Shown here: in pieces, positions 1,787-63,846 of the stretch
Layout: each line of letters begins with the position of its first letter
Numbering within the stretch: the stretch's first letter is position 1
Source: Liolophura sinensis
Taxonomy: Eukaryota > Mollusca > Polyplacophora > Chitonida > Chitonidae
Direction: 5' to 3'
Length of the DNA stretch: 64,000 nucleotides
Assembly: GCF_032854445.1 (NCBI RefSeq)
Contig: NC_088295.1
Coordinates: 92,745,805-92,809,804 of the forward strand
The notes under the pieces: generated by a model
Seen by the model: only the letters and a program-made list of their open reading frames with translations
What the model was told of the DNA's origin: nothing
Database searches by the model: none
Made by a program: the position numbers and the translations under genes

Positions 1787-2901
1787 CAGTCAAACCTGTA
1801 CCTACGGCCACCTGTAATCAGCGTCCATCTGCCGCAAGCGGCCACTTTTTGCCGCGACCAAACAATTTTCCGTATTAAACGACCTGTAATATACGGGCAC
1901 CTGTCCAATGTGTCCAGCGGCCAATGTATTTTGCCACCAAATTCTACATCAGCCTGTCTTGAGCGCCTGAGACTTTCAACAGTAATGATGATTCCCGCAT
2001 CAGACATTCAAAAATTTCGAAATGGCGACCACACGACTTCAATAGTTTTTGTAGTGATTAAAAGTTACAACCTGCCACTTGGTGATGACAAGTGAAGTGC
2101 GAACATTATTGGTCAATAGCACTGAAGTTTACCCTTCTTTAACCAGGCCTAGCTGGTTATTGTCCGGACACACCTGCACTGTGGCAGTGGATTAGCTCCG
2201 TGCTGGGGTCCCCGCTATGAATGCCTTAAACAGCGGGCAAACTCCGATATAATCTGACCTCCTGTGGTTCCTCCCATGAATGGTTTCTTTGACAAATTAT
2301 CTGGCTTGCTTGGCCATTACCTTTGTAGGCCATTATCTTTGTTTTCATTTCGTGTGGCCAAAATATTGCCTGTACCGGACACATGGAGAAACTGGTCTTC
2401 CTTCACTCGTACATGTTGTTGTTGTTGTTTCACCGGTAATGGCAAATATGATTGAACATCTCAGCAGTCTGTCATTTACAGTCCAAAACTTTGTTAGAAT
2501 AGTCATTTATACCTACATAGGCCAAACTAGCATATGGCTTTCTAGGCTTTCACATGACAATGATGGGAAGAAAGTTCTCTTGTCATGCTCGCCCTCACCT
2601 GAAACTCTTTCTGTAATTGCCTGTTAAATGCGTGAAGTCCATAGATCTACCCCACAAAACTTGAAATTACTGAGTTATTATTTTACCTCAATTGTTATAT
2701 TTCTATGAAATTTATGCAGTAAAACAGACTAGTGCTGTAACAATTATGTATAAGATTATTAAGTAGGCCTACATGTGTAGATTTCCTGAAACTTCAGTTG
2801 TGATTTGGCTTGGTCTTCACAACCTGTCTTATGTGGCCAACTGTCATATGCGGCCACTTTTTCTGCGTCCCTTCACTGGCCGCATACAACAGGTTTGACT
2901 G
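1787..2901. mobile_element. 1.1-kb TIR element (MITE) with TA target duplication
   Basis: Perfect 13-bp terminal inverted repeats, CAGTCAAACCTGT at 1787-1799 and its reverse complement at 2889-2901, are flanked by TA on both sides (1785-1786 and 2902-2903). Inner subterminal sequence is also related: both ends carry a GCGGCCACTTTTT block. No transposase is recognisable inside, so the element is non-autonomous. A CAGT-type end with TA duplication fits the Tc1/mariner-pogo superfamily, but that assignment is inference. It interrupts a reverse transcriptase sequence, which gives the order of insertion. Confidence 0.85.
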
Positions 2902-3961
2902 TATATGGATTCACCAATTTAACAGTGAAAAGGATAACTTCTTACCTCGAATGTCGATTACAAAAAGTTAGTATCTATAACAAGTTGTCTTCATCTGTAA
3001 ATGTCAAATCAGGAGTACCCCTGGGTTCTATTCTTGGCCCTTTATTATTCATAAAATACTCAAATGACTGTTGTTTAAAAGTTTCCAGCTGTGACATTGA
3101 GTTTTATGCTGATGATGCCATACTGTACAACCCTTCCAAATCTTTATCCGAAATTCAATCAGAAGTAAACTCTAATATGGAACTTATTAATCAGTGGTGT
3201 TTTGAAAATAAAATGCTTCTTAATGTGTCCAAAACAGTCCATCCTTATTGGAACTACCCAGAAATTATAAAATTGTCATCAGCATTCAGTCAATGTCACG
3301 GTCAAAGAACAGACAATTGAAAATGTACAAAATTTGAAGCTTCTTGGCCTGCATACAGACCATAGACTTTTATGGCAGAGTCACGTCTAAGTGTCTAAGC
3401 TATTATCAATACTGATGAGGCAGAAGCCTTTTCTTCCCTTAAAACAAGACTATTATTTTATAACAGTTATATCCTTCCTCATTTAATGTATGCTGTCCCT
3501 ATTTGGGGTAGCTGTTCCACAGGTCTACTTGATCGACTATATAAACTTAAAAAAAAAATGCTGCAAAATTTATCCTAGACAAACCTAACAATAAATCCTC
3601 AGCTGAAACTTTTGAAATGTTGAACTTAAAGACTATTCATGAAATTGTCCTATACCCAACAAATGTCACTGTTTACAAATCCTTAAATGACCACTATCCT
3701 GACTATATGAAAAAGTTGTTCACAATCAGAGAAGAGCCCCATCATGAACTAAGATTATGTAAAAACAATCAAATAAAAATTCCTTTTCCCCACACACAGC
3801 AACTTAAGAAAAGCTTGTCAAACTCTGCAGCTGTTCAGCGGAACAGTCTGCCTGCCCCTGTGCAATCTGCCTCCTCAGTTAAATTGTTTAAAAATTTGCA
3901 CCAAAAGTGGCAAAAAGTGCCAAACACATAAAGCCTTGTATCTCTCTCTCTCTCTCTCTTA
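2902..3961 (+). pseudogene. non-LTR retrotransposon 3' fragment (CR1/L2-like RT)
   Basis: Translation from 2904 gives reverse transcriptase motifs: a GVPLGSILGPLLF block and the catalytic FYADD at about 3102-3116, followed by the thumb-like QWCFENKMLLN segment. The frame breaks near 3230-3330 and again around 3400-3600. The C-terminal part, PIWGSCSTGLLDRLYKL through the LKTIHEIVLY and KSLNDHYPDYM segments, resumes at about 3470-3930; this layout is typical of the CR1/L2 group. The copy ends near a (CT)n run at 3944-3959. Stops and frameshifts make it a dead copy. Its 5' half is missing apart from the stub at 1727-1786. Confidence 0.85.
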
Positions 3962-6900
3962 AATGGTATACTTCTGACTACAGCCTTAACAGAGGTCATA
4001 TACAGTGTTGTATATGCCTACATGTACCATCACATAACTGATTCCTATAATTCCTGTGGTCATTTTGTGTTATGGTAATGACCCGTCTGGTGGACTCGCA
4101 GGGTTTGGGCAAAATCTATGGATAACTTCGGCTTTTTCTGATGTCTGAGCACTGTGTGGGATGCAAACTAGTCATGGATAATACATTTTCAAACCATTAG
4201 GGTTCACTTTCAAAAGACTTCTCTCTGCTTTTTTTTTTTGGCACATCTTTAACCATTGATGGCAGGTATCTACTTGGAACGTCATTCATGAATGACTAAA
4301 TTACTAAGACAGAAAATTTCCACAATGAAGAAATGTACTACACAACTCATAAACAAAAACACACAGGTATGGAATTACATGTGCCTGATATTTAAAGGGA
4401 ACATGCACAACTCAATAATCCTGTTACAATACAGCTTTTTTCATTCATTTTGTTGTCAGCTTTCTCCTAAACGTGGGATGTGTTTGTCTTCATGGAAAAC
4501 GGTTATATCGATTCAGCTTAAACTTACATGTAACTTATAAATTCTGATACTTTAATCTTCTGAAACACATGTATGATAAAGGAAACAAAGCACAAATATT
4601 GCCACATAAACAGAAGCGATAGAGACAGCTTTACATACGTGATTACTTGTAAAGTATTAAACACAAGTGGTGTCTTACTCTCTGTTTTCTCAAGATTAGG
4701 GATATCATGTAACAACCTGCATACCATTTGCAATGTGTTTTTAATAATAATAAAACTAAGTTATGTTCATGAAAGCAAGGGTTGCGTGGTTAACAGTGAA
4801 TGAACATATGCAGGAAGAAAAAAAGGTAGATTAGTAAGATGAAGGTTGGTCGCAGAATTGTGCCCTTAATAAGAGTGAATCCCTAAAATAGTCATCAAGC
4901 GAGCTGTTAATGAGGGTGGTAGAATTACACAGCAGTGTCATGATAATGTCTTAAGAGATATGAGGTCCTGATCTGTGGAGAAGCTTTGGACACACCGGGG
5001 AATGGCGCAGGGGAGGAGGGAGAAAAGCTAATTACATTAATATTTCAAAGTGTATTCATAGAGGAAATGAGAAGATCAGCCTGAGATGTCACTTAACAGG
5101 ACAAGAAAGGAATGCCTAAGATGAGTTTCCTTTCTCTGTATCCTGACCAGGAATTTAAAACCAGTCCTCTTTGCTACTAGTTGGCCCTCAAAGGTCAGCT
5201 TGTCATCTCCCATAGTTTATATCTGCTCCGCATATACAACATGTCACTAAATCTTTGTCTAATAAATACCATCCATTGTTTTTGGACATAACAATTTAAG
5301 GCTCACCCCTTGTCCAATCTTTCCAGCATCAATTATTTAACAGGCGGCTGTAAGCACGATGCAATTTACTGTACACACTTGTATGATAGAATATTAATAT
5401 TAATAATCTTGTTAGAAAGTGTAGAACATTTGAACCTTGTCATATTATCATGAACAATTAGAACAACTGGCAGGATTGACAATGGAATGACATAAATGTA
5501 AAATGCAGTAATTTGTGGACAGGAGGGAATCATTATCAACCAGTGATGTCTTTCTATCACCATTACCAGTGCTCCAGCTTTCTGGTCTTCTATGTTTCTC
5601 AACTCCGACTTAAATTGATGCTAAACCTGCAATTTCATAATGTCATTCTTAATTCAGATCACAATTTGGTCCTCATCAAAAAGTGCTGCGCAGGATAAAT
5701 GAACTTAATACCACCTAGGTGATCAAGCTCACCAGACATTAACTTTCAAAGTGTAGCCCATAAAAACAGGGAGGCCCTTGTTGGTGAAGTGCTGTGATGG
5801 ATGACTACAGAGTTAGACAACAGAGTGCCCAGAATAAGCTGGTGGCCTGTTTATAGCAGCAGCATATGGACAGAGAATTGGGGGCAAAAGATCAGCAGTC
5901 CAGCAGACAAAGGCAGGAACACTTGTTAAACTCTAACAGTAGCCTGTGAGAGTGGGATGGAGAGGACACAGTTTGTCCATCTGTTAGCAGTGTGGTTACC
6001 CAAGCTTTAACGGAGTGATCACATGAACAGCCACTTCATCATCAAACTGTCCCCCAGTCAATAGGTGAGCCCAACCCAGCCAACTGGACAATGCTGCATC
6101 ACCATGACGATAGGCCATCTAATTTGCAGTTATGCTGAAGGAGTAAACTATGAATACTTCACAGTGAGATGGACTTGAGGGAGTTATTAATGATGTGAGG
6201 TTCCTTAACAAGGGGGAGGTTTGTTGTACAAATCTTTTATGACTGATGGGCACCCATTCAGGCTACATGGTACATATAGGAGTTCTAGTAAACAGTGAAA
6301 TAGTCTTTATATACGAAATTCTCTACACACCAGAACACTTCACACCAAAACAACACTATTAAGAATATCAGTCAAATCAGTCAACACATCAGTCAAATCA
6401 ATAGCTTTTAATACTTATGGACCAGTGTCATCTGCATCACACGCCAGATCACTGTACCTATAAATGTATACATGTAGAGATATAAGGGGAGATTCGACTA
6501 CTGGTGGAAAGCCTAAGATTACAAAAAAGCAAACCTTCTCGTAATTCCATGTTATTTTCTGACAGCAATTTTGAGTCGTACATACACCCCGTTTAAGAGC
6601 TGGCTGAATAGGCAGCCAATTTTACTTTTGTGATGGCAGTCAGTCTTCTGGGTGAAGGCAAACCAGACTCTGGCCACACAAAACCACAGAAATTGAGCAC
6701 AATACCTCACAGTTCAAAGGCCAATTTATCTGCATGAGCCACTTATTGCCTCTCCTATTTTTAACTTATTTCAACTACTTCAAATGTGCTCATTATTTTT
6801 TTATTCAAAAGATGGTCATTTAAAAACTATTAGTTTATAAAATTGATAGTTATGTAAGACTAGAGCTGCAGTGTTGGCCACAAATGTACCCCACTTTTTG

Positions 6901-25612: not shown

Positions 25613-25655
25613 CGTAGAGACTGTAGCCACATTCTGGTTGTGGAAAGGCTCAAGT

Positions 25656-27040
25656 CTGTAGATGAAGCAGGTGATGTAGTGTATTGTATACACACTGAAT
25701 ACTGGACAATTCACAGGTGAGCTAAGTGACACGAGTCTGTAGATGAAACAGGTGATGTAGTGTATTGTATACACACTGAATACTGGACAATTCACAGGTG
25801 AGCTAAGTGACACGAGTCTGTAGATGAAACAGATGATGTAGTGTATTGTATACACACTGAATACTGGACAATTCACAGGTGAGCTAAGTGACACAAGTCT
25901 GTAGATGAAGCAGGTGATGTAGTGTATTGTATACACACTGAATACTGGACAATTCACAGGTGAGCTAAGTGACACAAGTCTGTAGATGAAACAAGTGATG
26001 TAGTGTATTGTATACACACTGAATACTGAACAATTCACAGGTGAGCTAAGTGACACAAGTCTGTAGATGAAACAGGTGATGTAGTGTATTGTGTACACAC
26101 TGAATACTGGACAATTCACAGGTGAGCTAAGTGACACGAGTCTGTAGATGAAGCAGGTGATGTAGTGTATTGTATACACACTGAATACTGGACAATTCAC
26201 AGGTGAGCTAAGTGACAAGTCTGTAGATGAAACAGGTGATGTAGTGTATTGTATACACACTGAATACTGCACAATTCACAGGTGAGCTAAGTGACACGAG
26301 TCTGTAGATGAAGCAGGTGATGTAGTGTATTGTATACACACTGAATACTGGACAATTCACAGGTGAGCTAAGTGACACCAGTCTGTAGATGAAACAGGTG
26401 ATGTAGTGTATTGTATACACACTGAATACTGGACAATTCACAGGTGAGCTAAGTGACATAAGTCTGTAGATGAAGCAGGTGATGTAGTGTATTGTATACA
26501 CACTGAATACTGGACAATTCACAGGTGAGCTAAGTGACACGAGTCTGTAGATGAAACAGGTGATGTAGTGTATTGTATACACACTGAATACTGGACAATT
26601 CACAGGTGAGCTAAGTGACACGAGTCTGTAGATGAAGCATGTGATGTAGTGTATTGTATACACACTGAATACTGGACAATTCACAGGTGAGCTAAGTGAC
26701 ACAAGTCTGTAGATGAAACAGGTGATGTAGTGTATTGTATACACACTGAATACTGGACAATTCACAGGTCAGCTAAGTGACACAAGTCTGTAGATGAAAC
26801 AGGTGATGTAGTGTATTGTATACACACTGAATACTGCACAATTCACAGGTGAGCTAAGTGACACGAGTCTGCAGATGAAGCAGGTGATGTAGTGTATTGT
26901 ATACACGCTGAATACTGGACAATTCACAGGTGAGCTAAGTGACACGAGCCTGTAGATGAAGCAGGTGATGTAGTGTATTGTATACACACACCTTGACTGG
27001 ACAATCCACAGGTGAGCTAAGTGGCACGAATCTGTAGATG
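25656..27040. repeat. minisatellite, 81-bp unit, 17 copies
   Basis: The unit begins CTGTAGATGAAACAGGTGAT and ends ATTCACAGGTGAGCTAAGTG plus ACACGAGT. An A/G site (GAAACAGG versus GAAGCAGG) alternates along much of the array, indicating a 162-bp dimeric higher-order unit. Each copy carries CAGGTGAG in the plus orientation, a good match to a 5' splice site. The minus-strand frames of up to 272 codons are periodicity artefacts. Confidence 0.95.
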
Positions 27041-29632
27041 ATCTAGGTTTAGTCACAGGTGTCATAATCTGATGGTACCATTATGTTGCTGCAGCTTTCA
27101 TAATCCACACCAGTTTACACCAGTTTACACCAGTGAGGCCTGTCCTGATCACAGCTATCCCTCTGGAGCATCCACCGCCCCCATTGTTGCTGGCCTAATC
27201 AGGTTTCTGTTAAACTGTTTTCTGGGTGCATCATATTGATGCCAGCCCAGAGGCGGTTTGCAGGCCCCTGGCTGGTCAGTCTTAGAAAGCTCCCACCCCA
27301 ATTACTCTGCCTACAAAAAAAGCTTGTGTAGAGAGGGAGAGTTAATGAGCAGTCCAGCACACAATCATCGTGAGTCTATGAAGTGCTGTGCCACGTTTGT
27401 CTGTGACTAGATGCCACAGTCCCACAGCCAGTCACATGATGCAATTCTCACATAGCTCTCAGCAAAGACAATAAACTATTAAGGCAGCAGGAAATCTAAA
27501 CGTTTGTCTTTGAAAGGAAAGATGATGGGTGAGGCCTGGACAGAAGAATGCCCTTTTCTCCACTCAAAACAAGGCTTTTTTCTCGTTTCCCTATCATAGT
27601 CGGCACATCATATTTCCACAAAGCCCTTTTTCCCCCCTGTAAAAACGTTGTCGTTTTTCCTATTATCGTTCAATGCCTTTCTTTGATGTTGGTCGAGATC
27701 TCCATTTGAGCAATTCTAAATGATTAATTATGTGATAGCCAGGCTAGCGTCTGCTCATTTCCGACCCAATCAGTGGCAGTAAGAATGCATCAATCTGACA
27801 GGGCTCACCCAGCATCACTCACCGACACACAAGTACAAATCTGACTAATGAAGCTGTTAACTTACAAACAGTTTGGTTCAGATTTAAGACCAATCACATC
27901 CCTCAACAAACCTCAATGACTATGACAAAATTAGGGGCAGGGTCTCTGATGTCACAATAGCTCTTCTTCCCTAAGGGAAACAAGAAAGCAACCTCTGTCT
28001 GCCAAAATTCAATACAACTCTATGCCAGAGTTTTTTGTTATTGCATGTATTTCTCTTCCTCACAGAGCTGGAAGTTTCTTTTGAAGTCCACTTAGACTAT
28101 TTATCAGCTCATGCTGTCAAATTCCCTCATAAAGTAAAATAATAATACCTGTCCTGATTAATGACCTCTCTAACGTGTGCCAACAACTCTATACCATTAG
28201 CAACCTCTCTGTTCCAGGAACTTCTCCAATTAAACAAGCTTAATCTTATAATTAAATATAAAACAGGTTGTTTTTCTCGACCCAATCTGCCTAATGACTC
28301 TCACCACAATGGTATTCATTTTGTGATACTGTCCCAACTGAAAAACTCTTGCCCTATGGGTTTCTTAGAAAGAAAAGAAATCCCTGTGCTTCTAGTGGTT
28401 TCTTGCAATTAAAACAGCATAAAACAATAATCAATGAATAATTCATAGATGTAGTTTCGGGGCTCCTTTTTTTTAATGAAACAGATGTTCAGGAAATATT
28501 CTGAAACCAAAAATGTAACAGCAAAACCACAGACAAGTTAAACATGTTTCGATTCTGCTGAACTTTCTCAAAGTCTTCCAACCCTGCCTTTACAAACAAA
28601 GTATTGTCATGGCCAGCAACAATTACCAAGCAAAAATGAAATATTAATTGTTCTTCGTCTCTTATATTCCATGATGGATGGGCCATGTAATATTTATATC
28701 TTTTGTATGGGCTTTACTCGTTAAATTCTGTGGTGACCAGCCCTATCGTGCCGGCTCTGTCGCACTTCTGTCAGACAAACATGTTACAACAGTTACAATT
28801 AAGCTGAAGAAAAATGGTGCCACACTGTTTTGTGGCAATGACTCCAAGATTACTGGAGCTAACGTGACGTTCTATCATCAGAGCCTCCTGAAACTTGCAA
28901 ACGCCTGCAAACACAAGACAAATTTGTCATGATTTCTTAAAGGGGCAGTCTGGTTAGAAATCAATACGGGCTTGGCTAGCTCTTGCGAAGTTCAGCAAGC
29001 AATCGTACACCAAAACTGGAGTCAGTCTATGACATCCAACACCGCAGTCTACATATTTCTGGATTCAATGTAACATAAGAACCAGTTCATCCTAATCTTC
29101 ATCTAAGAAGAACCAAAGTGCCATTGTGGTGTACATTATTAGCTGGTAACAGAGCCAAGAAGACCCTGTCTGTCTGTATCAATGTTACCAGTCCTCCTCT
29201 AACTCTTTGTGGTCAGTCAAATAAAGACATCAGCCAGCCACTCAATCCAACGCAACTAATACACAGTTACCGGTTAAAATAAGCCAACAGAAACATTTCA
29301 CATCAGAGTGAACAAAGATAAGCAGAGCCTACAGCAATTACTGTCTACAAGGAATCCACGACAGCTGTGCTTGTAGCTCAGTGACTCCACAGGGATGTTC
29401 CGCCATCAATCCCGTCTGTCCAGGTGGACTTATTGCTACAATCCCCAATCATATGTCCCATCAATCTACAGCAGTAGCTAGGTGTTAACACAAGAAATCT
29501 GGGAAGTGTGACAAAGACACAGACATTGGCACTGTTCAAATCCCAGACTCTTTTGTACAAGCAACTTCTAACCACAGAGTAAGATATACATGCTGACTTA
29601 ACTGACAGTTATTGTGCTCCAGTTCTACTGGT
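27041..29632. other. non-coding, partly high-complexity
   Basis: 27130-27830 is unusually non-repetitive and moderately GC-rich between two repeat fields, a possible regulatory island (inference). An 84-codon open frame at 28678-28932 with a hydrophobic start was considered and not accepted as a gene. Confidence 0.5.
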
Positions 29633-37066: not shown

Positions 37067-38240
37067 CACATTTAGGCCTAACATACATGTATACATTTAC
37101 AAAATATGATTCACATGCTAGCTTACTTATCTGATTATGACTAGACTTTGTGATTTTTCACTAATATGGCAGCCGTCACAGGGTAAACAGATCACCTATT
37201 CTGGTAAAGTTACAAATAAACTTTTCCACATGAGGGGCACAGATGCTATATTGATGGCACGTAAAGTGTTCTTCACACGAACTTCAAATAAGACCCCCTA
37301 AATGGCCACACAAGCCCCACTGACCATTTTTTGCCACAGTGTAAGCGAAGGGATATCAATGATACTCTCTCATGTCTGTCCTACTGATCAAAAGAAAAGC
37401 ATCTTAAAAACTCGGTCAAAACTCACTCAACAATGTAATAATTGGTATTTGGTAATTTAATACACAACCACAACAGAGCTTTTCAATTTAACAACTAGAT
37501 TATAATGCTGGTACAAAGAAAAAAATCATAACTCACAACGCAATAGAAAAGAAAGTTAACAAGACTAAAAAAAAAAACTAAAAAAAAAAACATAACACAT
37601 GTACATTAGATGAAACGGCTTGTTGCATTTAAATCCATTTAAGCTATGCCTTCATCTCTGTATCCAATTAAACAGGAAATTATTAATACTAAGACCCCAT
37701 AAAAACGTAGGCGGAGGATGTGTATCAGTAAACGTATAAAATCAGGGGAAATGGGTGTGCAGATGACTCTTGATGAGTGGAATATCATCAGAATATTAGT
37801 GAGAGCATTCATGAGAGTTTTATGAGGAACGCAGCATGATCCAGCTGCTATGTGAAGTCGCACGGAGCTCTCCTTGTAGCAGCCACAACCCGGACCCTTT
37901 TATTGATTATCATCCACTATGATCATTGCACTTGAGTTAGCAGGGAGGAGAGAGATATGTCTTCAAGAGTTATCCCCCTTTGCCTTCAACATCAGACTTC
38001 AGTTTGCGACTGAAATACGAGTGATCACCACCTGACTTGGATAAGTGCTGATCAAGTTTCACAGTGTGTGATAAGGCAGAAAAACATTCACTGGAAGTTC
38101 TTAGTGGATCACAATATTGTCACACCAATAAACCTGTTACCATCACTCAAACTATCAATGAAGAACAGGAAGCAAAAAACTGTTTTTAACGTTCATATTA
38201 TCACTCTAAGTCTCATTATTGTTTTTTCATTATTTTTCAG
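37067..38240. other. non-coding flank of the prohormone-like gene
   Basis: 37495-37600 is A-rich. 37690-37960 is non-repetitive and could be regulatory. The tract ends in a pyrimidine-rich stretch and TTTTTCAG at 38233-38240, which reads as a 3' splice site directly before the coding exon. Confidence 0.5.
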
Positions 38241-38242
38241 AA

Positions 38243-38632
38243 ATGGCGATTTTCAACAAATGGGTATACAGTGGAATTGTTGCCATAGTAACATTGACAG
38301 CCATTGTGATGACGGCGGACGAGGAGGCAGAAAACTGGTCGGAACAGTCGGGCAGCTCTAGGCTGAATGAACTAGCTAGCATAGATAAAGCCCTGCTGGC
38401 TCGCTATCTGGCCGATATGTTGTCACGGAATCCCTCCTATGACAGCCCTATTCCCCCAGGAAGCACCTTACAGGCCAAACTTCAGTCCTACATCAATGCC
38501 CAGTCTCCAATGGCCAAGCGTGATGGCTACTGGGTCTGGATGCCAGCTCAAGGATTCGTGCCCATCCCCAAACAGAACGGCGTTGGCTCCTCAAAGAGCG
38601 CTTCCCACACAAAAATCCTGCGTTACGGTTAA
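38243..38632 (+). CDS. neuropeptide-like secreted prohormone (possible ILRYamide)
   Basis: The 129-codon exon starts with ATG two bases after a strong acceptor (TTATTTTTCAG ending at 38240), so an upstream 5' untranslated exon is expected. Residues 1-25 form a signal peptide with a hydrophobic core (YSGIVAIVTLTAIVM) followed by an acidic start of the mature part. A dibasic KR near residue 93 precedes DGYWVWMPAQGFVPIP. The frame ends in ILRYG and a stop; a C-terminal Gly is the donor for peptide amidation, giving an ILRYamide. Short peptides ending in LxRF/LLRYamide are known from molluscs (LFRF/LFRY, short-NPF-related), and that is my best but weak family guess. The GYWVWMP peptide is unfamiliar. 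The stop sits exactly where a one-base deletion would give a GKR amidation/cleavage site and 58 further codons (next entry). A neuropeptide function is inferred from architecture only. Confidence 0.6.
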   Translation: MAIFNKWVYSGIVAIVTLTAIVMTADEEAENWSEQSGSSRLNELASIDKALLARYLADMLSRNPSYDSPIPPGSTLQAKLQSYINAQSPMAKRDGYWVWMPAQGFVPIPKQNGVGSSKSASHTKILRYG

Positions 38633-47930: not shown

Positions 47931-48036
47931 ACGTTCTTATCATTCCTATGCATGCTTTTGTGGAGTTTTGGAGTTTTCCCTCACAGTTTATACCAAGTGT
48001 GATTTGCTATGACTGATACATGCATGGTTGTCTAAC

Positions 48037-50160
48037 CTTCCTCTGATGTTCTGCAAACACTCTGGCCTCAGAATCGTACTTCTCCTGTAGTCGCTGCCGT
48101 GCTGCCGCCATGGACTCCAGCCTTCTCTGTGCTGTGTTAGAATCTACAAACACATTTGAATTACACGCCAGGCAAGAAAAGCTGAACATTTCTTATCATA
48201 TCTCTTACATTTCTCACCATATCTCTTACATATTTCATACCATCTCTCTTACATTTCTCACCATATCTCTTACATATTTAATAACATATCTCTTACATTT
48301 CTCACCATATCTCTCACATTTCCTAATAGGTGTATATTTCTCCTTTATACATGTACAGTATATTCTCTAACATGGATATCTCTTACACGTCTTTTGTCCT
48401 ATTATTCACACAATATGTAACAGGGTGAATATAAGTGATGCTACCTCTAGGATGATAGGAATTTCCCTTAGTTGAAACAGGGACTAAAAACCCAAGGGCT
48501 GATGGTTCACACCCCAAAAGGGGCTCCTTGTAACAATTGGCACTGCCAGCAGAGCGAGCTGGGGCAGCAATGGCACAGCCAATAATTTGAAGGTGGTTCC
48601 TGTGGTTGTTTCACTGCCCTTGTGATGGGGATATGGTGGAACATAGGCACCAGTTACATGTGCTTGCCGGCAGAGGGGAATTTCTCTTTCCTCCAGCGGT
48701 AGAAGCATGACCCCAGATTTGAAACCCAAAGGTTGATGGCTCAAACCTCAACAGGGTCACCCCAACAGGACATGATATTGGGGTATCTAACAATGTTTAC
48801 CATATCTGAATCCTGTGCTTATGATATTATATATATAAACAAAACAAATAACTTTTTTTAATCTTCAGAAAGCTAACAACTTGGATAAAGACTTGACTAC
48901 AGATCATATGATATTTACATGGATTACCCTATAATCTTACCATACTTCTTCAGGTTTTTCTCTTCCTGTTTCTCCTGAAACTGCCTGAACTTCTGCTCTA
49001 GCTTTCCCCAGAAGAAATAAATCAGTATTGCCCCAAGAAGAAGAAACCAGCCATATTGTTCCAAGACTTGAAGAACTGAAAGGAAATGTCATATATAATA
49101 CATTTTCAGCATCAAGAAGCCCGACAAGCTTTACAGACTAAGACTGGTACTGTTTGTAGCACGATCTGATATCTAACACACAATGTGCCACCAATAAATC
49201 CCATTTGCACATCACAACAAAGCAGAGGTCAGATTAGCATCCAGTGATCAGATTAGCATCCAGTTGTCAGAATTTTTTTTTCAACTTTGGGCAAGTTGAT
49301 GGGGCACGAAAATTTTATCGTACCAAACATTCTCTTTTCAGAGTTGAATGCCCTGTAAACAGCATGTTGAGTGGGATAAATTTTCGTGGCCCATCATACT
49401 GCTTGAAGATGATAAAAAAAATTGTAAACATGGCAGACATTGATTTTAGTTGTCCAATTCGAAAGTTTGAATGGCTGGATTACTGTTGAAGGATGGTTAA
49501 CCAATGCTGGCTTTCACATACTGTATTTTGGGCATTTTAGGAAATCGGTGAATAGCAAAATTAAGGTAGGGTTTGAGCCGTTTTTTTTTTAGTGAAATTG
49601 TCCACTTGGAAGTCTTTAGGACCACAGCTTGGCGTTATGGTAGGAACGTCCAGCTTAGCTTAAGGCTAGGACTTAAACAGCTACCAGTACATTTACAGTC
49701 AGTAATGATATATTGGAAATGTTCAGAAATACTATAGATGCACCTGTACTGGCTTTAGGTCTGCTTTTAGCCCTATTCAATATGACTCCGTGACTTGTTT
49801 AGGTGAGTGAGTGGAGGTATTTCGTTCTTACATGATGCAGGGAAAATATGACATGGGAACACTTCCCCAGTGTTGTAGCGAGATCGGTCCTAAATTGAAC
49901 TGTGCGGGGACGAGCTTCCAGCCTTAAACCAGGTAGCATCTGCAGCGATATTGCGTACGGTAGTAGTTCAGAAATCGTTGGAGCAGTTACGGCTAGTTGC
50001 TGAGGTGAAACAGACAGTGGTAATGTTGTTGTTGTTCTTAACACCGTGGTTTGGCTACCAAGAATGAAGTCAGATAATCACCTATTTGTGAGGTTGAGGG
50101 AGACATGGGCGGAGGTGGAGGTTGCTGGGCTTCTCCGGCTTCTCGGCCCTGAGCATCCAT
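48037..50160 (-). CDS. SELENOS: selenoprotein S (VIMP), N-terminal three exons
   Basis: Selenoprotein S is a single-pass ER membrane protein that recruits VCP/p97 for ER-associated degradation. Exons are 50160-50082, 49075-48941 and 48143-48037, with junctions at ATAG|gtgatt, ttcag|TTCTTC, TATG|gtaaga, ttgtag|ATTCT and GGAAG|gttag. Frames join cleanly and give 107 residues. Residues 1-26 include a PPPPP stretch. YGWFLLLGAILIYFFW at 34-49 is the membrane anchor, followed by a charged coiled coil. R79-x5-A85A86-x2-R89 is the VCP-interacting motif (RX5AAX2R), at the same position as in vertebrates (78-88). The rest, about 80 residues including the Gly-rich tail, the selenocysteine UGA and the SECIS element, should lie at lower coordinates but was not found. 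A CCACG core (plus-strand 50231-50235), the half-site of ER-stress elements, lies 71 bp upstream of the start. Confidence 0.85.
48187..48330. repeat. minisatellite, about 21-bp unit
   Basis: Imperfect copies of CATATCTCTTACATTTCTCAC lie in the intron just upstream (minus-strand sense) of selenoprotein S exon 3. Confidence 0.75.
48430..48790 (-). repeat. two tRNA-like repeat modules in SELENOS intron 2
   Basis: Two direct-repeat modules share AAACCCAAGGGCTGATGGTT / AAACCCAAAGGTTGATGGCT (48489 and 48721) and nearby GGAATTTC blocks. TGATGGTTCACACCCC resembles a Pol III B box. This is possibly a dimeric SINE; orientation and class are uncertain. Confidence 0.4.
49076..50081 (-). other. SELENOS intron 1
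   Basis: The intron is bounded by the donor at 50081 and the acceptor at 49076 (minus strand). A duplicated AGATTAGCATCCAGT occurs at 49231-49265. No other element was recognised. Confidence 0.7.
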
Positions 50161-55572: not shown

Positions 55573-55690
55573 AGGCCTAGAGAAAGTGGTACAAAAGCCA
55601 CAGAAGAAATCAAAATTACAGAAGAAGAGAAGCCTTTTTTGATGACAGGTAATATAAATAGAAAAGTTGGGAAAGTGATCACTGTGCACT

Positions 55691-58600
55691 ATGGATGAGT
55701 GCACACAAAGTACGAGGGAAGACTGCAGTGTCTTCAAAAATGCAGAGAAACCAGACAGCGGTCACTGTAAGCTTTCTGTCAAACAGGAAGATGCCCATGA
55801 TATCATCCATAGGTTATCAACCTTATCGTTGACAAAGACCAAAAGTGAAGACACTTGTCCACATCTAATCTCACGAGGTCCACATGGAGGTCGAGCAACT
55901 GCTTTTGGGCAGGCTGAATATCAAGGCAACTGTGACAGTTTTACATCCCAGTCTGACAGCACAGATAAGAAGACTGTATCAGGGAAGAGGGTCTGCGAGG
56001 CTGCAAACGACCAAAGCTACAAGTATAGGCCTACAGAACCGGTCATGGATGAAGACCTCATCAAAGAAATTGTTCATCAGCTTTGTTCCCAGAACTACTT
56101 TCCCGAGCACCTTCTGGCCCCACAGGTGCAGAATGGTGCAAGTCCCTGTGAACAGCCAGCAGTTAATGACAGTGTAACATCAAATGATGATTGTCTGTTC
56201 TCTGACATCACACAGGAAGACCCCGTACCTGTTGGTTGTACAAGTGACACTTGGGGTGCTGAAGAGCTCTCATGTGATGGCCAATCAATGTCATCGGATG
56301 TTATGAATGACATTTTATTTAGTGAGTTAGACAACGAGCTACTGGGTATTGGACACCAAGGAGAATACTCGACCCAAACATTGAGAGGCAACACTTATTG
56401 TTCTGAAACTTTTCTACCAAATACTGCCTTGGGAAATGCACACACAAATATTTTTGTTTGCCGTAAAAGCAGGTCTCTAGATTCTTTACCCTCATTGGAG
56501 GGAGCCCTGGTGGACTCTGGAGTGAGTTTGGAGTGTCAAGAGACCCCCCCTGTGGACAATTACCTATGTTCAGATGGGAGACTGCCCACTCATGGCAGGC
56601 TCGAGGCTTTCCAAAAATATTCTGATCTGAAAAACAGGAGCATCTCCCTAGATCATTTAACAGCACTGCAGCCAAATAACAACCCACTCCAAGATGCCCC
56701 GAAAATCAGCCACATATTTATGGAAGACATTGAGAAGAGTCCAGCTACAAGTGCTAAAAAAGTGGAAACAGAATCATTTGGAAAAACAACAGGGTTAAGT
56801 GGCAATATATCAACAACATGTGCTGAAACAAATGCGCAAGTGATAACAACTCGGACAACATCAAAGTTGGCTATTGCTCAAAAATCTTTTAGTGCTCAGC
56901 TTCCCTGCCCCTTGAACAGACAGGACATCTTAGAACGAGAGAAAAGATGTGATGTGTACAGCAACATTGTTAGTGACTGCAAAGTCTCCGGGGCAAGTTC
57001 CAGTGAGAGGTGCCTTGGTAAATCGAGTGTGAAATTAGACACACCTGTGGAAGAGAACTTTGCTGGCCAGGTGAACTTGAAGCCATATATTGGTGGAAAT
57101 GTTCTTGGAAACCCAAATGTCACAGCAACAGTGGTTGCTCCGATCAACAAATCAGGCATGGCTATCAGGCCAGACATAGTTATCAAATCAGGTATGGCTG
57201 CTCCTGGAAACCAAAATAAGAAGTCAGTCATGGCTGCCCCTGGTAACTCAGTTCAAGCTCTCATTCTCCCACCACATTTTTCTTGTCATTTACCTCAGGC
57301 TCGACCTCCAGTATGTATCTTCCGCTCACCTCCCAAAAATTCTTCACGTACCCAAACACCAAAGCTGATAAAAATTTTGCCAAAGCCGCCTAAAGCACCC
57401 CAGCCAACTGTCACTAATGGAAATCTCTGCAGTACCAGTATTCCCTCAAACCTCTGCTATATGCCTCCAAGCTCATGCAGTATGCCTTCAAACTCCAGCA
57501 GTGTGCCATCAAACCTCTGCAGTTTGCCCACAAACCCCAGCAGTATGCCTCCAAACCCTTGTGGTATGCCTCCAAACCCTTGTGGTATGCCTCCAAACCT
57601 ACAGTCCGCTTACAGAACATTTCAACAACCCATGATTGTAGCAAGAGATAACAAAGACTTACAAACCAACACACAGGTAACTGATGGTCTGATATGGGAT
57701 AACAGACAATCCCACAGCTTATCTGACTCTTGTCAAAGGGTGACACCTGCAGCACTGATGGCCCAACAAATTCAACTACCGCAGAATCCGCGCAACCAAG
57801 GTAAGTAATTTATGTGATAAAATAAGTAGCAGGTATGAGAAAAGTGTAAATCTGTACTGACTCGTCAATTAATTCATTTCACCACAGGTCTTGAAGAAGT
57901 GAGTGCAGGTTTCGCAGTATTGATGGTATGCCTGACTAAATGGGACAGTTCTCACTCAGTTGAGGGTAGTTCTTACACAACTGAGGGTAGTTCTTACACA
58001 ACTGATGGTAGTTCTTACACATCTAATGGAAGTTTTCACACAACTGGTGGTAGTTCTTACACAACTGATGGTAGTTCTCACTCAACTGAGGGTAGTTCTT
58101 ACACAACTGAGGGTAGTTCTTACACAACAGATGGTAGTTTTCACATCACTGAGGGTAGCTCTGACACAATTGAGGGTAGGTCTGACAACTGTGGGTAGGT
58201 CTGACACAACTGTGGGTAGGTCTCACACAACTGGGTGTAGGTCTGACACAACTGAAGATAGGTCTGACACAACTGAGTGTAGGTCGGACACAACAGAGTG
58301 TAGGTCGGACACAACTGGGGATAGGTCTGACACAACTGATGGCAGGTCTGACAACTGTGGGTAGATGTCACTAACACAACTGAGGATAGGTCTGACAGTT
58401 ATGGGTACGCCTGACACAACTGAGGGTATGTCTGACACAACTGATGGCAGGTCTGACACAACTGAGGGTAGGTCTTACACAACTGTAGGTAGGTCTTACA
58501 CAACTGTGGGTGGGTGTTGCACAACTGAGGGTAGGTCTGACAACTGATGGCAGGTCTGACACAACTGAGGGTAGGTCTTACACAACTGTGGGTAGGTCTT

Positions 58601-61600
58601 ACACAACTGTGGGTGGGTGTTGCACAACTGAGGGTAGGTCTGACAACGGAAGGCAGGTCTGACACAACTGTGGGTAGGTCTGACTGACACCAATGAGGGT
58701 AGGTCTGACTGACACCAGTGAGGGTTGGTCTGACACAACTGTGGACGTAGTTTCTTGTGGATGAGTGAACTTGAAGTGCGGTGATTTGTGAGATGTGGTG
58801 CTATGGTTTCCTCTGTTCTCAGTTGGATCAGCAGTGGTGAGATTCAGTTTTCTGTAATTTGACATTATGGTGCCCTCTGGATTGGCATAGGTGTCATGCA
58901 GTGAGGTGTGATGGTTTCTTCGGGATTAGCAATCGTGTGGTGCAGTGAGGTGTGATGGTTTCCTGTGGCTTAACAGTGGTGTGGTGCAGTGAGGTGTGAT
59001 GGTTTCCTCTAGATTAGCAATGGTAAAGTGCAGTGAGGTGTGATGGTTTCCTTTGGATTGGCAATGGGGTGGTGCAGTGATGTGTGATGGTTTCCACTGC
59101 ATTAGCATTGGTGTGGTGCAGTGAGGTGTGATGGTTTCCTCTAGATTAACAGTGAAGTGTGATGGTTCCTCTTGATTGGCAGCGGTGTGGTGCAGTGAGA
59201 TGTGATGGTTTCCTCTGGGTTAGCAAAGATGTGGTTCAGCAAGGTATGATGGTTTCCTCTTGATTAGTAGTGGTGTGGTGCAGTGAGGTGTGATGGTTTC
59301 CTCTTGATTAGCATTGGTGTTTGTCAATGAGGTGTGATGATTTCCTCTGCATTATCATTGGTGTCGTGCAGTGAGGTGTGATGGTTTCCTCTAGATTGGT
59401 AGTGGTAATGTGCAGTGAAGTGTGATTTTCTCTTTGGTATTACCATTGGTGTGGTGTAGTGAGGTGTGATGGTTTCCACCGGATTAGCAGTGGTGTGATG
59501 AAGTGTGATGTGATGGTTTCCTCTGGATTAGCAAAGGTGTGGTACAGTGTGATGTGATGCTTTCCTCTGGATTGACAATGGGCTTGTCTGGGCTCTGTAC
59601 GGTTAATTCTGCCAGTAATCCTGTAATCACAATTCAATCTATCAGTAGGAAATGACAACATTTATGTCCCTTGAATCTTTAAAAGGATTAGATTAATTTA
59701 GCATCATCAGTGACCAGACCAATTTCCATGTTTCAGTTAATCATGTTTGAATGAATTATGATCATGATTGATCTGTTTGTGATTACCAGTAAATGTTTTT
59801 CGAAGTTGGATACAATAAATTCAACTGCACGATTTGCATTTATTATTGATATTACGGTTCTTGTTGTCTGAAACCGATGTTTGGTTCCCAGGAGAGTTTC
59901 CCATCCCTCGGTGTGCAAATCCTGAGCCTGTGCAGCTAACAATAGTTCGTCGCGCAGTGGCTGAACTGAAACTGGAAGATTTGTTTTGCCAGAACGAGGA
60001 TGGTGACACGTAAGTGCATGCCAAAGCCAGCTACATGCTCATCTTAAACATGCAGAGAACAAATAAGCATCAGTGGAAAGACCAAGGAATTCAATATCAC
60101 AAACTGCCTTTGAAAGTATTTGTTTTTTTAGAGTTTTATATCATGTGCCTGCCTGTCTGTCCATCTGCAGACTTGATTTTGCCCACTCAACTAAAGTAAA
60201 GTATTGCACTGATTTCTGAAAGGACTGAAACCTTGCATACATCTTAGCCATAACATAATTCTCCTTGCATTTATGTCAATTTTTGAAGAGTTACCCCTTC
60301 TCAGGTACTAATACATTTACAGATGTTGTCTTCTTTACATCTGCACAGTACTGCACAGATTATCATGGATGATTGTAAACATCTTTGTATGAAATAATCT
60401 TGTACTTTCGTAATTTTTTTCCACACTTTTGATTTACTGAGTCAGGAGGTATTTCTGACACGCATACCCTGGTGTTTACTGAATCAAATGCCGTCAAATG
60501 CTTGAATTCTGTTAAGTGCATAATGGGCCTGATTGACAGCTCTGAATGCAATTGATGTTACACTGCATTTTCAATGCTTTTCTTTTCATCTTATGAAGAA
60601 ATTTATGTGAAGATAAAGTTTGCTCATGCACATAAAGATATTCCAGCATTTAGTACAGCGTGTGTCGTGAAAGAAATTGGAGGGGCTCTCACTGCATTTT
60701 AGCTAGTCAGTCCAAAAAAAAATGTGGAAAGGAAGGACCTGGTAGTTAGATATTGTTTTCAGTAGTCATTCTACGATGACGTATGTTTGTTTTTCTTTCA
60801 CTTTGATGAGAGCGGTGAACATTTGGTAGATCATGTATTGACAGTAAGCCTATTTTTGATGTGCGCAGATGACAACTAAGTCGGTACTAGGAAGAAGGTT
60901 GCACTTCCTCCTAGGTCAGTGTAAAACATTGTGTCAGAGGACGTTTTGTTCACATGTTGTATGGGCAGGTACAAAGATCCTGTATCCTGTGCCAGTGTCA
61001 CTCCTCCAATCTGTTTGTACGTAGCTTCACCAAAATATAAAACAAAACTCTTGTTCAATATACAATATAACTGGGTTTTCCCAAGGGCACAGTTTAATAA
61101 TGCAGTTTTGAAAATAAAACTAAATGACATGAGTGTTTTTTTTTTACCTTTTATATGGGAGGATTTTCTAAACAGTTTTTATTTAACATGCTTGCTTAAA
61201 AATTGATTTTCTTTAAAAAGTGTTCAGTGGTTGAATTATTGAGGGCATTCATGTAATGTCTTACTCAACCTTTTGTGGAGTAGCTGGTACTTAGTTTTAA
61301 ATAAGTTTATTTTACTGGATGTGATTGTTCCCTGAACATTCTTGGTTGTACTACGTAACCAAAACTCTGCACTAGTGAATGGATTCTGAACAAAAGTCAT
61401 ACAAAAAGGTTCATACAAAATGTACACCATGTGATAGCACTATACAGGCCCACCCTGGTAACCTGGGGTGGAGCTTGATAGCAGCTGACAGGCCCACCCT
61501 GGTAACCTGGGGTGGAGCTTGATAGCAGCTGACAAGCCCACCCTGGTAACCTGGGGTGGAGCTTGATAGCAGCTGACAAGCCCACCCTGGTAACCTGGGG

Positions 61601-63846
61601 TGGAGCTTGATAGCAGCTGACAGGACACCCTGGTAACCTTGGGTGGAGCTTGATAGCAGCTGACAAGCCCACCCTGGTAACCTGGGGTGGAGCTTGATAG
61701 CAGCTGACAGGACACCCTGGTAACCTTGGGTGGAGCTTGATAGCAGCTGACAGGCCCACCCTGGTAACCTTGGGTGGAGCTCGATAGCAGCTGACAAGCC
61801 CACCCTGGTAACCTGGGGTGGAGCTTGATAGCAGCTGACAGGACACCCTGGTAACCTTGGGTGGAGCTTGATAGCAGCTGACAGGCCCACCCTGGTAACC
61901 TGGGGTGGAGCTTGATAGCAGCTGACAGGCCCACCCTGATAACCTGGGGTGGAGGTTGACAGCAGCTGACAGGCCCACCCTGATAACCCGGGGTGGAGCT
62001 TGATAGCAGCTGACAGGCTCACCCTGGTAACCTGGGGTGGAGCTTGATAGCAGCTGACAGGCCCACCCTGATAAGCTGAGTGGAGCTTGATAGCGGCAGA
62101 CAGGCCCACTGTTGTAACCTGGGGTGGAGCTTGATAGTAGCTGACAGGCCCACCCTTGGTAACCTGGGGTAGAGCTTGATAGCAGCTGACAGGACACCCT
62201 GGTAACCTGGGGTGGAGCTTGATAGCAGCTAAGCCCACCCTGGTAACCTTGGGTGGAGCTTGATAGCAGCTGACAGGCCCACCCTGTTAACCTGGGGTGG
62301 CGCTTGATAGCAGCTGACAGGCCCACCCTGGTAACCTTGGGTGGAGCTTGATAGCAGCTGACAGGCCCACCCTGATAACCTGGGGTGGAGGTTGACAGCA
62401 GCTGACAGGCCCACCCTGGTAACCTGTTGTGGAGCTTGATAGCAGCTGACAGACCCACCCTGGCAATCTGGGGTGGAGCTTGATAGCAGCTGACAGGACA
62501 CCCTGGTAACCTTGGGTGGCGCTTGATAGCAGCTACAGGCCCACCCTGGTAGCCTCGAAAGCTTGATAGCAGCTGACAGGCCCACCCTGGTAACCTGGGG
62601 TGGAGATGATTTGCCAGAGATGAGTCAGTGCTGGCTGACATGCCTGAACACACTGTTACCTAATGCAGAATGTGAACTAATACAGAATCATGTGAGGTCA
62701 TGTGGTATGTGTTAATTTAAACACTCAGGCAGTGTTATTTTACATTGGAATGGCATCTGTTTATTGTTTGAGTATTTTATAATGTGTGTAATCTTGTCTG
62801 TTACAGACAAAATTATGTAACTAAACTGTCATTATTTTATAAACTATTATCACATTTAGCCATCTTCACTGATATTGTTTTTCAGGTCACTGTATTGATA
62901 TGTAGTTAGTATTAAAAATTAGCTATCATAAGTATTAGCTAAATCATAGCTAAATTGTTATTTATTTTATAAGGAACAAATGAGTTTTAACCCACTATCA
63001 CTAACTGTAATGTTCAGAGGTTTACGCTGGCTGCATTCTACATGCATGTGACCATAGCCATGTGAGTACAGGTCATACTGTCTGCTGGCAGGTACTTGCA
63101 TGTGGCTGTGTACCGCACTAACGCTTACATGCTGAGGGCCCTTCTGGAGCGCATGGTGAGGGAGGGAATCATTAAGAAGATGATGAACATATGTAACAAC
63201 CTCCATCAGGTGAGATAACTTCACTGGAGTAATGACCTATGCCAGTTGAGATAACTTCACAGGTGTAACAAACTTTTCAGGTGAGATAACTTCACAGGTG
63301 TAACAACTTTTATCAGGTGAGAGAACTTCACATGTGTAACAACCTCTGTGTGGTGAGATAACTTCTCAGATGTAACAGCCTTTATCAGTTGAGATAACTC
63401 CATCTCCATCAGGTGACAACTGCATAGGTGTAACAACTTCTGACAGATGACATAACTTCACATTTGTAACAAATTCTGTCATGTGACAGCTTCACAGTTG
63501 TAGAAACTTTTCTAATATCAGGTTAGATAACTTCACGGATGTAACAGCTTTTCTCAGGCGAGATAACTTCACAGGTGTATCAAATCTGAGGGGAGAATTT
63601 CACAGATGTAACAACCTCTGTCAGGTGTGATAACTTCACAGGTGTAACAACCTGCAACTTTTGTGCCGTAATGCTGAGCCACTTCCAGCTCCTCACAAAT
63701 GAATAAACCCCATGCCACATGGAGGATATGTGCACACACGTAGTTGTATGTTGTAGACACCCCTGTACATGGCTGTGGCAGATAACCAGCCCCTGATGGT
63801 GCGAGAGTTTGTGGAGTTTGGGGCAGATCCGGACTGTCTGGCACAG
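55691..63846 (+). CDS. atypical nuclear IkappaB-like protein (Bcl-3/IkappaB-zeta/IkappaBNS type), partial
   Basis: Exons are 55691-57800, 59892-60009, 63092-63209 and 63757-63846; all junctions are GT-AG and phases agree (1, 2, 0, 0). The 703-codon first coding exon has no Rel domain. It holds a predicted helix DEDLIKEIVHQLCSQNYF (about 120-137), Ser-rich SRSLDSLPS (about 259) and a Cys/Pro/Asn tract with tandem MPPNPCG heptads (about 610-640). Exon 2 ends in EDLFCQNEDGDT and exon 3 continues YLHVAVYRTNAYMLRALLER, a canonical first ankyrin repeat; exon 4 adds TPLYMAVADNQPLMV with GADPD. The long N-terminus followed by a DGDT-start ankyrin domain is the layout of nuclear IkappaBs, which bind p50/p52-type dimers and tune transcription. 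The last ankyrin repeats lie beyond 64000. A cytoplasmic Cactus-type IkappaB is less likely given the N-terminal length. Confidence 0.8.
57888..58198 (+). other. possible alternative last exon of the IkappaB-like gene
   Basis: After only 87 bp of intron, CATTTCACCACAG ends at 57887. Joining 57800 to 57888 keeps an open frame for about 103 codons to a stop at 58196-58198, through in-frame heptads of the EGSSYTT type. Such an isoform would have no ankyrin repeats. The array is 21-bp periodic over this stretch and becomes 20-bp periodic after the stop. It may be coincidence. Confidence 0.3.
57950..58745. repeat. minisatellite, 20-21 bp unit, about 39 copies (IkappaB intron 1)
   Basis: The unit GGTAGTTCTTACACAACTGA(G) in the first 250 bp gives way to GGTAGGTCTGACACAACTGA, with some units shortened to GACAACTG. 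Confidence 0.95.
58775..59592. repeat. minisatellite, about 42-bp unit (IkappaB intron 1)
   Basis: The unit contains GTGCAGTGAGGTGTGATGGT and TTCCTCTGGATTAGCAGTG. Copies are rather diverged and some are shortened. TTTCCTCTGGATTAGCAG is a pyrimidine-AG sequence that imitates a 3' splice site in the sense strand. Confidence 0.9.
59593..59891 (+). other. end of IkappaB intron 1
   Basis: Unique DNA leading to the acceptor TTTGGTTCCCAG that ends at 59891. No other feature was seen. Confidence 0.7.
60010..61442. other. IkappaB intron 2, left part
   Basis: The intron starts with a GTAAGT donor at 60010. AT-rich, without recognised exon or element. Confidence 0.65.
61443..62612. repeat. minisatellite, 44-bp unit, about 27 copies (IkappaB intron 2)
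   Basis: The unit contains CAGCTGACAGGCCCACCCTG, then GTAACCTGGGGTGGAGCTTG and ATAG. Shortened units (GGACACCC for GGCCCACCC), base changes and occasional truncated copies occur. Long minus-strand frames across it (418, 275 and 164 codons) are periodicity artefacts. Confidence 0.95.
62613..63091. other. end of IkappaB intron 2
   Basis: AT-rich unique DNA running to the acceptor CTGCTGGCAG at 63082-63091, used by the exon that begins with the last base of the DGDT threonine codon. Confidence 0.65.
63192..63660 (+). repeat. 36-bp minisatellite built from an exon-intron junction
   Basis: The consensus unit is TGTAACAACCTCTATCAG followed by GTGAGATAACTTCACAGG. The first half equals the last 18 bases of the ankyrin exon (63192-63209) with one difference; the second half equals the first bases of the intron. 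About 12-13 diverged copies fill the intron. Candidate donors survive at 63281, 63317, 63352, 63413, 63522 and 63625; others are mutated (CAGTTGAG, CAGGCGAG). The first intron codons in frame are GTG AGA TAA, so use of any later donor truncates the protein. Confidence 0.85.

Follow-up and report, generated by a model that had tools for sequence, protein, structure and literature searches.

Our analyses identify, in an ankyrin gene of the chiton Liolophura sinensis, a minisatellite that spans an exon-intron boundary, the 36-bp unit being made of the last 18 bases of the exon and the first 18 bases of the intron. By its structure, this array is of the same kind as the amphioxus "mirages", and it is probable that it is largely neutral while perhaps adding some leaky, NMD-prone splicing. 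The array lies in the last part of the window, by which we mean the whole stretch of 64,000 nucleotides that was analysed.

The exon concerned (63092-63209, + strand, (T)YLHVAVYRTNAYMLRALLERMVREGIIKKMMNICNNLHQ), whose frame and splice sites were read from the sequence and which has PDB matches to BCL3 (1k1a), IkB-alpha, and IkB-zeta (9bor), ends at CAG|GTGAGA, with TGTAACAACCTCCATCAG as its 3' end and GTGAGATAACTTCACTGG as the adjoining intron start. It is followed by a phase 0 intron of 547 bp (63210-63756, +) with the acceptor TTGTAG|ACACCC and by a second ankyrin exon (63757-63846, +, TPLYMAVADNQPLMVREFVEFGADPDCLAQ) with the donor CAG|GTAAGG. An upstream exon ending in NEDGDT, with its donor after 60009, joins the 63092 exon in frame to give DGDTYLHVAV, and the joined stretch of 96 residues matches BCL3 (1k1a, E-value 9.1e-14), p100 (4ot9, 9.4e-11), IkB-alpha (1ikn, 1.3e-10), and IkB-zeta (9bor, 1.4e-9) in the PDB. 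The lowest whole-sequence E-value, 5.5e-15, belongs to the NOMPC channel (5vkq) and is a sum over many weak repeats, the best one shown reaching 11.4 bits. The ankyrin repeats of the joined stretch match the IkB/BCL3/NF-kB class, and the host gene is, as judged from its sequence, an ankyrin gene of the IkappaB type, to which we give no subtype name. Naming it IkB-zeta was considered and dropped, the best IkB-class PDB match being BCL3. NCBIfam gave three matches on the gene, each far below cut-off, and Pfam searches with the single ankyrin exons gave sub-threshold matches; the listed literature matches on IkB-zeta and Bcl-3 in molluscs offered nothing of use for the naming. The gene had been called live in an earlier note on this DNA, and the open, conserved frame is the basis on which it may be so described. 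A long open frame further upstream (55679-57808), which holds a 21-bp array (57436-57599) encoding PPNPCGM-type peptide repeats, is perhaps the N-terminal exon of the same gene, and the intron preceding the 63092 exon carries 27 copies of a 44-bp unit (61432-62605, TRF).

The copies of the 36-bp unit were defined by wrap-around alignment of 63092-63756 to the authentic unit, i.e. the source copy at 63192-63227 (+), which contains the authentic donor after 63209. Twelve further copies follow at 63228-63642, with an identity of 25/34 to 32/36 over aligned letters and with five inserted bases in one of them; a weaker copy at 63643-63674 (22/32) was counted as partial, its first ~13 bases being retained by eye, so that the derived part of the array runs from 63228 to 63655 (+) with an approximate right edge. 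TRF, run independently of this alignment, gives a period of 36 at 63192-63399 and 63418-63653. Weak alignment rows outside the array were left out (63170-63191, 13/22; 63675-63703, 18/29; 63704-63735, 22/30). The autocorrelation of the intron reaches 0.497 at lag 36, as compared with 0.225-0.329 at the other lags from 33 to 39, and is somewhat raised at lags 17 and 19 (0.374 and 0.358). At a threshold of at least 12/18, the exon-end 18-mer is found at 9 places in 63228-63756 (shuffle mean 0.26, maximum 3, 300 shuffles) and the intron-start 18-mer at 10 places (shuffle mean 0.27, maximum 3), whereas the 18 exon bases just 5' of the exon-end 18-mer have 0 matches there at the same threshold, showing that the similarity begins 18 bases inside the exon. 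Elsewhere in the 64 kb, a single match of at least 14 was found for each of the two 18-mers (at 4708 and 50313, respectively). TRF, the alignment, and the 18-mer searches thus agree on the composition of the unit that the earlier note had proposed, and the alignment together with the shuffle tests places the exon end inside the unit and supports the origin of the array by tandem duplication across the boundary. The dozen or so copies that had been counted after the authentic donor are also borne out by the 12 copies and the partial one aligned here. On the other hand, the array does not quite fill the intron, as had been stated, but occupies most of it (~446 of 547 bases), leaving ~100 non-array bases before the acceptor. 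The possibility that both halves of the unit stem from a single 18-mer was rejected: the local alignment score between the exon half and the intron half, 4, was reached by 1576 of 3000 shuffles, and that between the halves of the array consensus was likewise matched by 1781 of 3000.

A search out to 1.5 kb around eight other junctions of the window, at a threshold of at least 20/36, revealed no array. Two single places at 20/36 were found for the ank1 acceptor (63739 and 63764) and one at 21/36 for a selenoprotein-S acceptor (47975), and zero places for the remaining six. The selenoprotein S-like exon itself (48010-48192, - strand; Pfam PF06936, 2.9e-05, below the curated cut-off) lies between a 21-bp array on its upstream side and a 79-bp array on its downstream side, and neither of its junctions is repeated as an array. 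Elsewhere in the window, an 81-bp array of ~17 copies (25653-27041) carries 16 donor-like CAG|GTGAGC on the + strand, with no exon recognised by eye at its edges, and a reverse-transcriptase fragment is present at 2790-3317 (+; Pfam RVT_1, 4.5e-09). The window also holds an NKY-2 proneuropeptide ORF (38210-38632, +) with a hydrophobic signal-like start, a dibasic KR, and DGYWVWMPAQGFVPIP...ILRYG-stop. Its peptide GYWVWMPAQG matches the consensus G[YF]WIWMPAQG of PMC6425005 at 9 of 10 residues; that mollusc survey, which treats the family as specific to Lophotrochozoa, records NKY from each of the eight mollusc classes as well as from annelids and nemerteans. As a single marker gene, it points to a lophotrochozoan and perhaps molluscan host, and away from amphioxus, which the abundance of minisatellites had at first suggested.

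The end of the ankyrin exon encodes CNNLHQ, and TPLYMAV continues across the intron; at this place the solved structures of BCL3 and IkB-alpha read NNLRQTPLHLAV and NNLQQTPLHLAV in the alignment (NNLxQTPL). Because NNLHQ aligns with the NNLxQ of both proteins, the exonic letters are likely to be constrained by the protein, and this alignment makes it most likely that copying ran from exon to intron, with the exon as the source. The copies differ jointly from the source copy at two positions (T at -6 in 10/12 and A at +16 in 10/11), suggesting either that they were homogenised among themselves or that the source copy changed later.

Reading through the authentic donor meets an in-frame TAA at intron bases 7-9 (63216-63218, +), so that every donor beyond 63218 would bring in V-R-stop; all six readings taken with the donor positions of the earlier note show this stop, as it had claimed. 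With V-R-stop in the frame of its intron half, the unit cannot have come from duplication of exon sequence only. As had also been proposed, six of the twelve copies retain a GT donor, and six have lost it. The last exon bases of the retained donors are 63280, 63316, 63352, 63412, 63521, and 63624; 63352 had been given correctly, but the other five had each been placed one base too high. All six had been considered plausible, which fits best for two cryptic donors that equal the authentic 9-mer CAG|GTGAGA (63278-63286 and 63314-63322, +) and lie 71 and 107 bases 3' of the authentic donor. The other four, GTG|GTGAGA (63350-63358), CAG|GTGACA (63410-63418), CAG|GTTAGA (63519-63527), and CAG|GTGTGA (63622-63630), all on the + strand, are weaker, with scores of 2.9-4.3 on a 5' splice-site PWM as compared with 7.3 for CAG|GTGAGA, and with U1 pairing of -6.8 to -8.2 as compared with -11.2 kcal/mol. 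The copy at 63299-63334 carries GAA where the source copy has the in-frame TAA, so that a 36-nt micro-exon at 63317-63352 would be open and in frame. Inside the ankyrin exon, a donor-like ATG|GTGAGG (63153-63161, +) has a PWM score of 5.4, above four of the six array donors, and is predicted to be more unpaired than the authentic donor.

From these donors, the earlier note had inferred a switch, by copy number or donor choice, between full-length IkappaB and an NMD-targeted or truncated product, for which our analyses provide no support beyond its being possible. In addition to the loss of GT from half of the copies, the donor core (-3 to +6) is conserved among the 12 copies at a mean of 10.1 of 12 versus 9.6 elsewhere in the unit; 9 of 36 circular placements, the true one among them, give a difference as large, and hence there is no significant excess that would indicate selection, twelve copies giving little power to detect it. 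When agreement with the authentic copy is scored in place of the array consensus, the nominal lead of the core is somewhat larger, 10.1 versus 8.9 of 12, which may point the other way, and much of this lead comes from the -6 and +16 columns. Folding gives the authentic donor no advantage either, the predicted unpaired probability being 0.25 at 63209, 0.40 at 63280, and 0.27 at 63316, so that RNA accessibility offers no explanation for a preference for the authentic donor. Regular splicing is also reported to be undisturbed by comparable arrays in amphioxus, where Adh3 data and globin RT-PCR suggest that it is kept (PMC3087553 and PMC3902484).

The strongest alternative is that the array supplies donors that are used, in which case a measurable share of transcripts would come from 63280 or 63316 with V-R-stop and be degraded or cut before the second ankyrin repeat, and array length would set the productive fraction. 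Donor competition is to be expected rather than excluded, since two copies carry the authentic 9-mer and the one at 63280 shares 4 identical bases to its left and 15 to its right with the authentic site. Four array donors also reach a PWM score of at least 4, where the window rate predicts 0.47 for 450 bp (same matrix). The minisatellite of human IFI6 (6-16) is sited at an exon-intron junction. To go by the title of an article by Turri et al. from 1995, it reportedly provides multiple splice donors. Work on this minisatellite is cited or described in PMC3618361, PMC2572611, and PMC4526556, with downstream repeat units acting as donors and giving rise to three mRNA species (PMC4526556). The chiton array resembles IFI6 in offering multiple donors, which here are candidates; it differs in that the IFI6 repeat donors are used and yield different isoforms, whereas the donors of the chiton array are predicted ones and every extension to them meets the stop. 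In Caenorhabditis elegans, the minisatellite CeRep25B occurs close to regions of alternative splicing more often than expected (PMC4039745). Against these points stand the GT-less copies, the lack of a significant conservation excess in the donor core, and the amphioxus reports, and we regard the use of array donors as unlikely on balance. A more far-reaching version, in which a length-variable donor array acts as a heritable rheostat, 63280 and 63316 competing with 63209 and array length and composition setting NF-kB inhibitor dosage between individuals, appears quite improbable.

Another possibility is that the intron itself was born when an exonic AGGT segment was duplicated in tandem (the Rogers model), the array being the remnant. 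AG|GT occurs 10 times in 63226-63700, compared with 1.95 expected from the window density; PMC4974935 mentions introns of fission yeast that lie across duplicated AGGT exon segments of 24 bp, and PMC3087553 proposes mirage-driven intron gain. However, the second half of the unit holds the in-frame stop, no copies were found within 1.5 kb of the junction at 63757, and the non-array bases separate the array from the acceptor, so that the intron is not bounded by duplicated exonic AGGT segments in the way the model describes; an origin of this sort is thus very doubtful. The closest case is potato RdRp, in which a new intron arose from one tandem duplication that ran across an intron-exon boundary (PMC4974935). 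Both this case and the Rogers model share with the chiton array a tandem duplication carrying splice signals, and the potato one also crosses a boundary, but in potato a single duplication created an intron, whereas the chiton has many short copies inside one intron with no new intron or exon seen.

It is extremely unlikely that the copies serve as ratchet points of recursive splicing or as cryptic micro-exons (pyrimidine run plus AG|GT): some copies have drifted to pyrimidine-rich ends, e.g. CTTTTATCAG|GTGAG, and among the 3801 AGs of the window those at 63412 and 63557 rank at the 96th and 94th percentile, the authentic acceptor 63756 ranking at the 80th, but the matrix used for 3' splice sites is a simplified one and already puts the source exon end at the 90th percentile; moreover, only 2 of 82 AG-to-donor pseudo-exons are open and in frame (63317-63352 and 63490-63624), which may be chance, and a 547-bp intron would seem to have no evident need of recursion. 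Just as hard to credit is an intronic enhancer formed by clustered WGATAR, which we take to be a GATA-type transcription-factor motif, given that its 7 occurrences in 433 bp (0.76 expected from the window rate) belong to the repeated unit (GTGAGATAAC) and their number follows from the duplication.

The largely neutral, junction-spanning minisatellite that we favor would have arisen when a segment of 18 + 18 bases across the exon-intron boundary was duplicated in tandem and then grew, presumably through slippage or unequal exchange, to a minisatellite of ~13 copies within the intron. The copies would drift nearly neutrally while the spliceosome mainly uses the authentic donor 63209, and occasional use of 63280 or 63316 would give a V-R-stop transcript to be removed by NMD. 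We also counted toward the neutral reading that further tandem arrays abound in the window (TRF lists 77 rows, some of them overlapping, in 1-64000). The amphioxus mirages, known from Adh3, the globins BflGb6 and BflGb9, troponin C, and PGBD5, are described in PMC3087553 and PMC3902484 as minisatellite-like tandem duplications across the exon-intron boundary, with splice signals in many but not all repeats and with length instability, even somatic. The chiton unit likewise spans the boundary, and its array lies head-to-tail beside the authentic junction, with a GT in 6 of 12 copies and two identical 9-mers. It differs in its 36-bp unit (mirage units measure 150-160 bp in BflGb6, 157 bp in BflGb9, and 10-72 bp in Adh3; PMC3087553), in its IkappaB-type gene, in a host that is a lophotrochozoan and not a cephalochordate, and in being known from one sequence. 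Among molluscs, an intronic 27-bp minisatellite of abalone varies in copy number between individuals, the excerpt of PMC6905558 not stating whether it spans a junction, and no earlier report of a junction-spanning minisatellite in a lophotrochozoan was found among the matches listed from the open-licence PMC literature.

Together, these data extend mirage minisatellites from cephalochordates to a lophotrochozoan, a host group that looks new for them, and suggest that such arrays can form wherever minisatellites abound and may be more common than reports indicate. The chiton intron is also a natural setting in which to test how a 5' splice site is chosen, as three donors with the same 9-mer lie within 107 bases and only the first keeps the frame open. 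Should array length prove to vary from one individual to another, population data could reveal what splicing noise costs.
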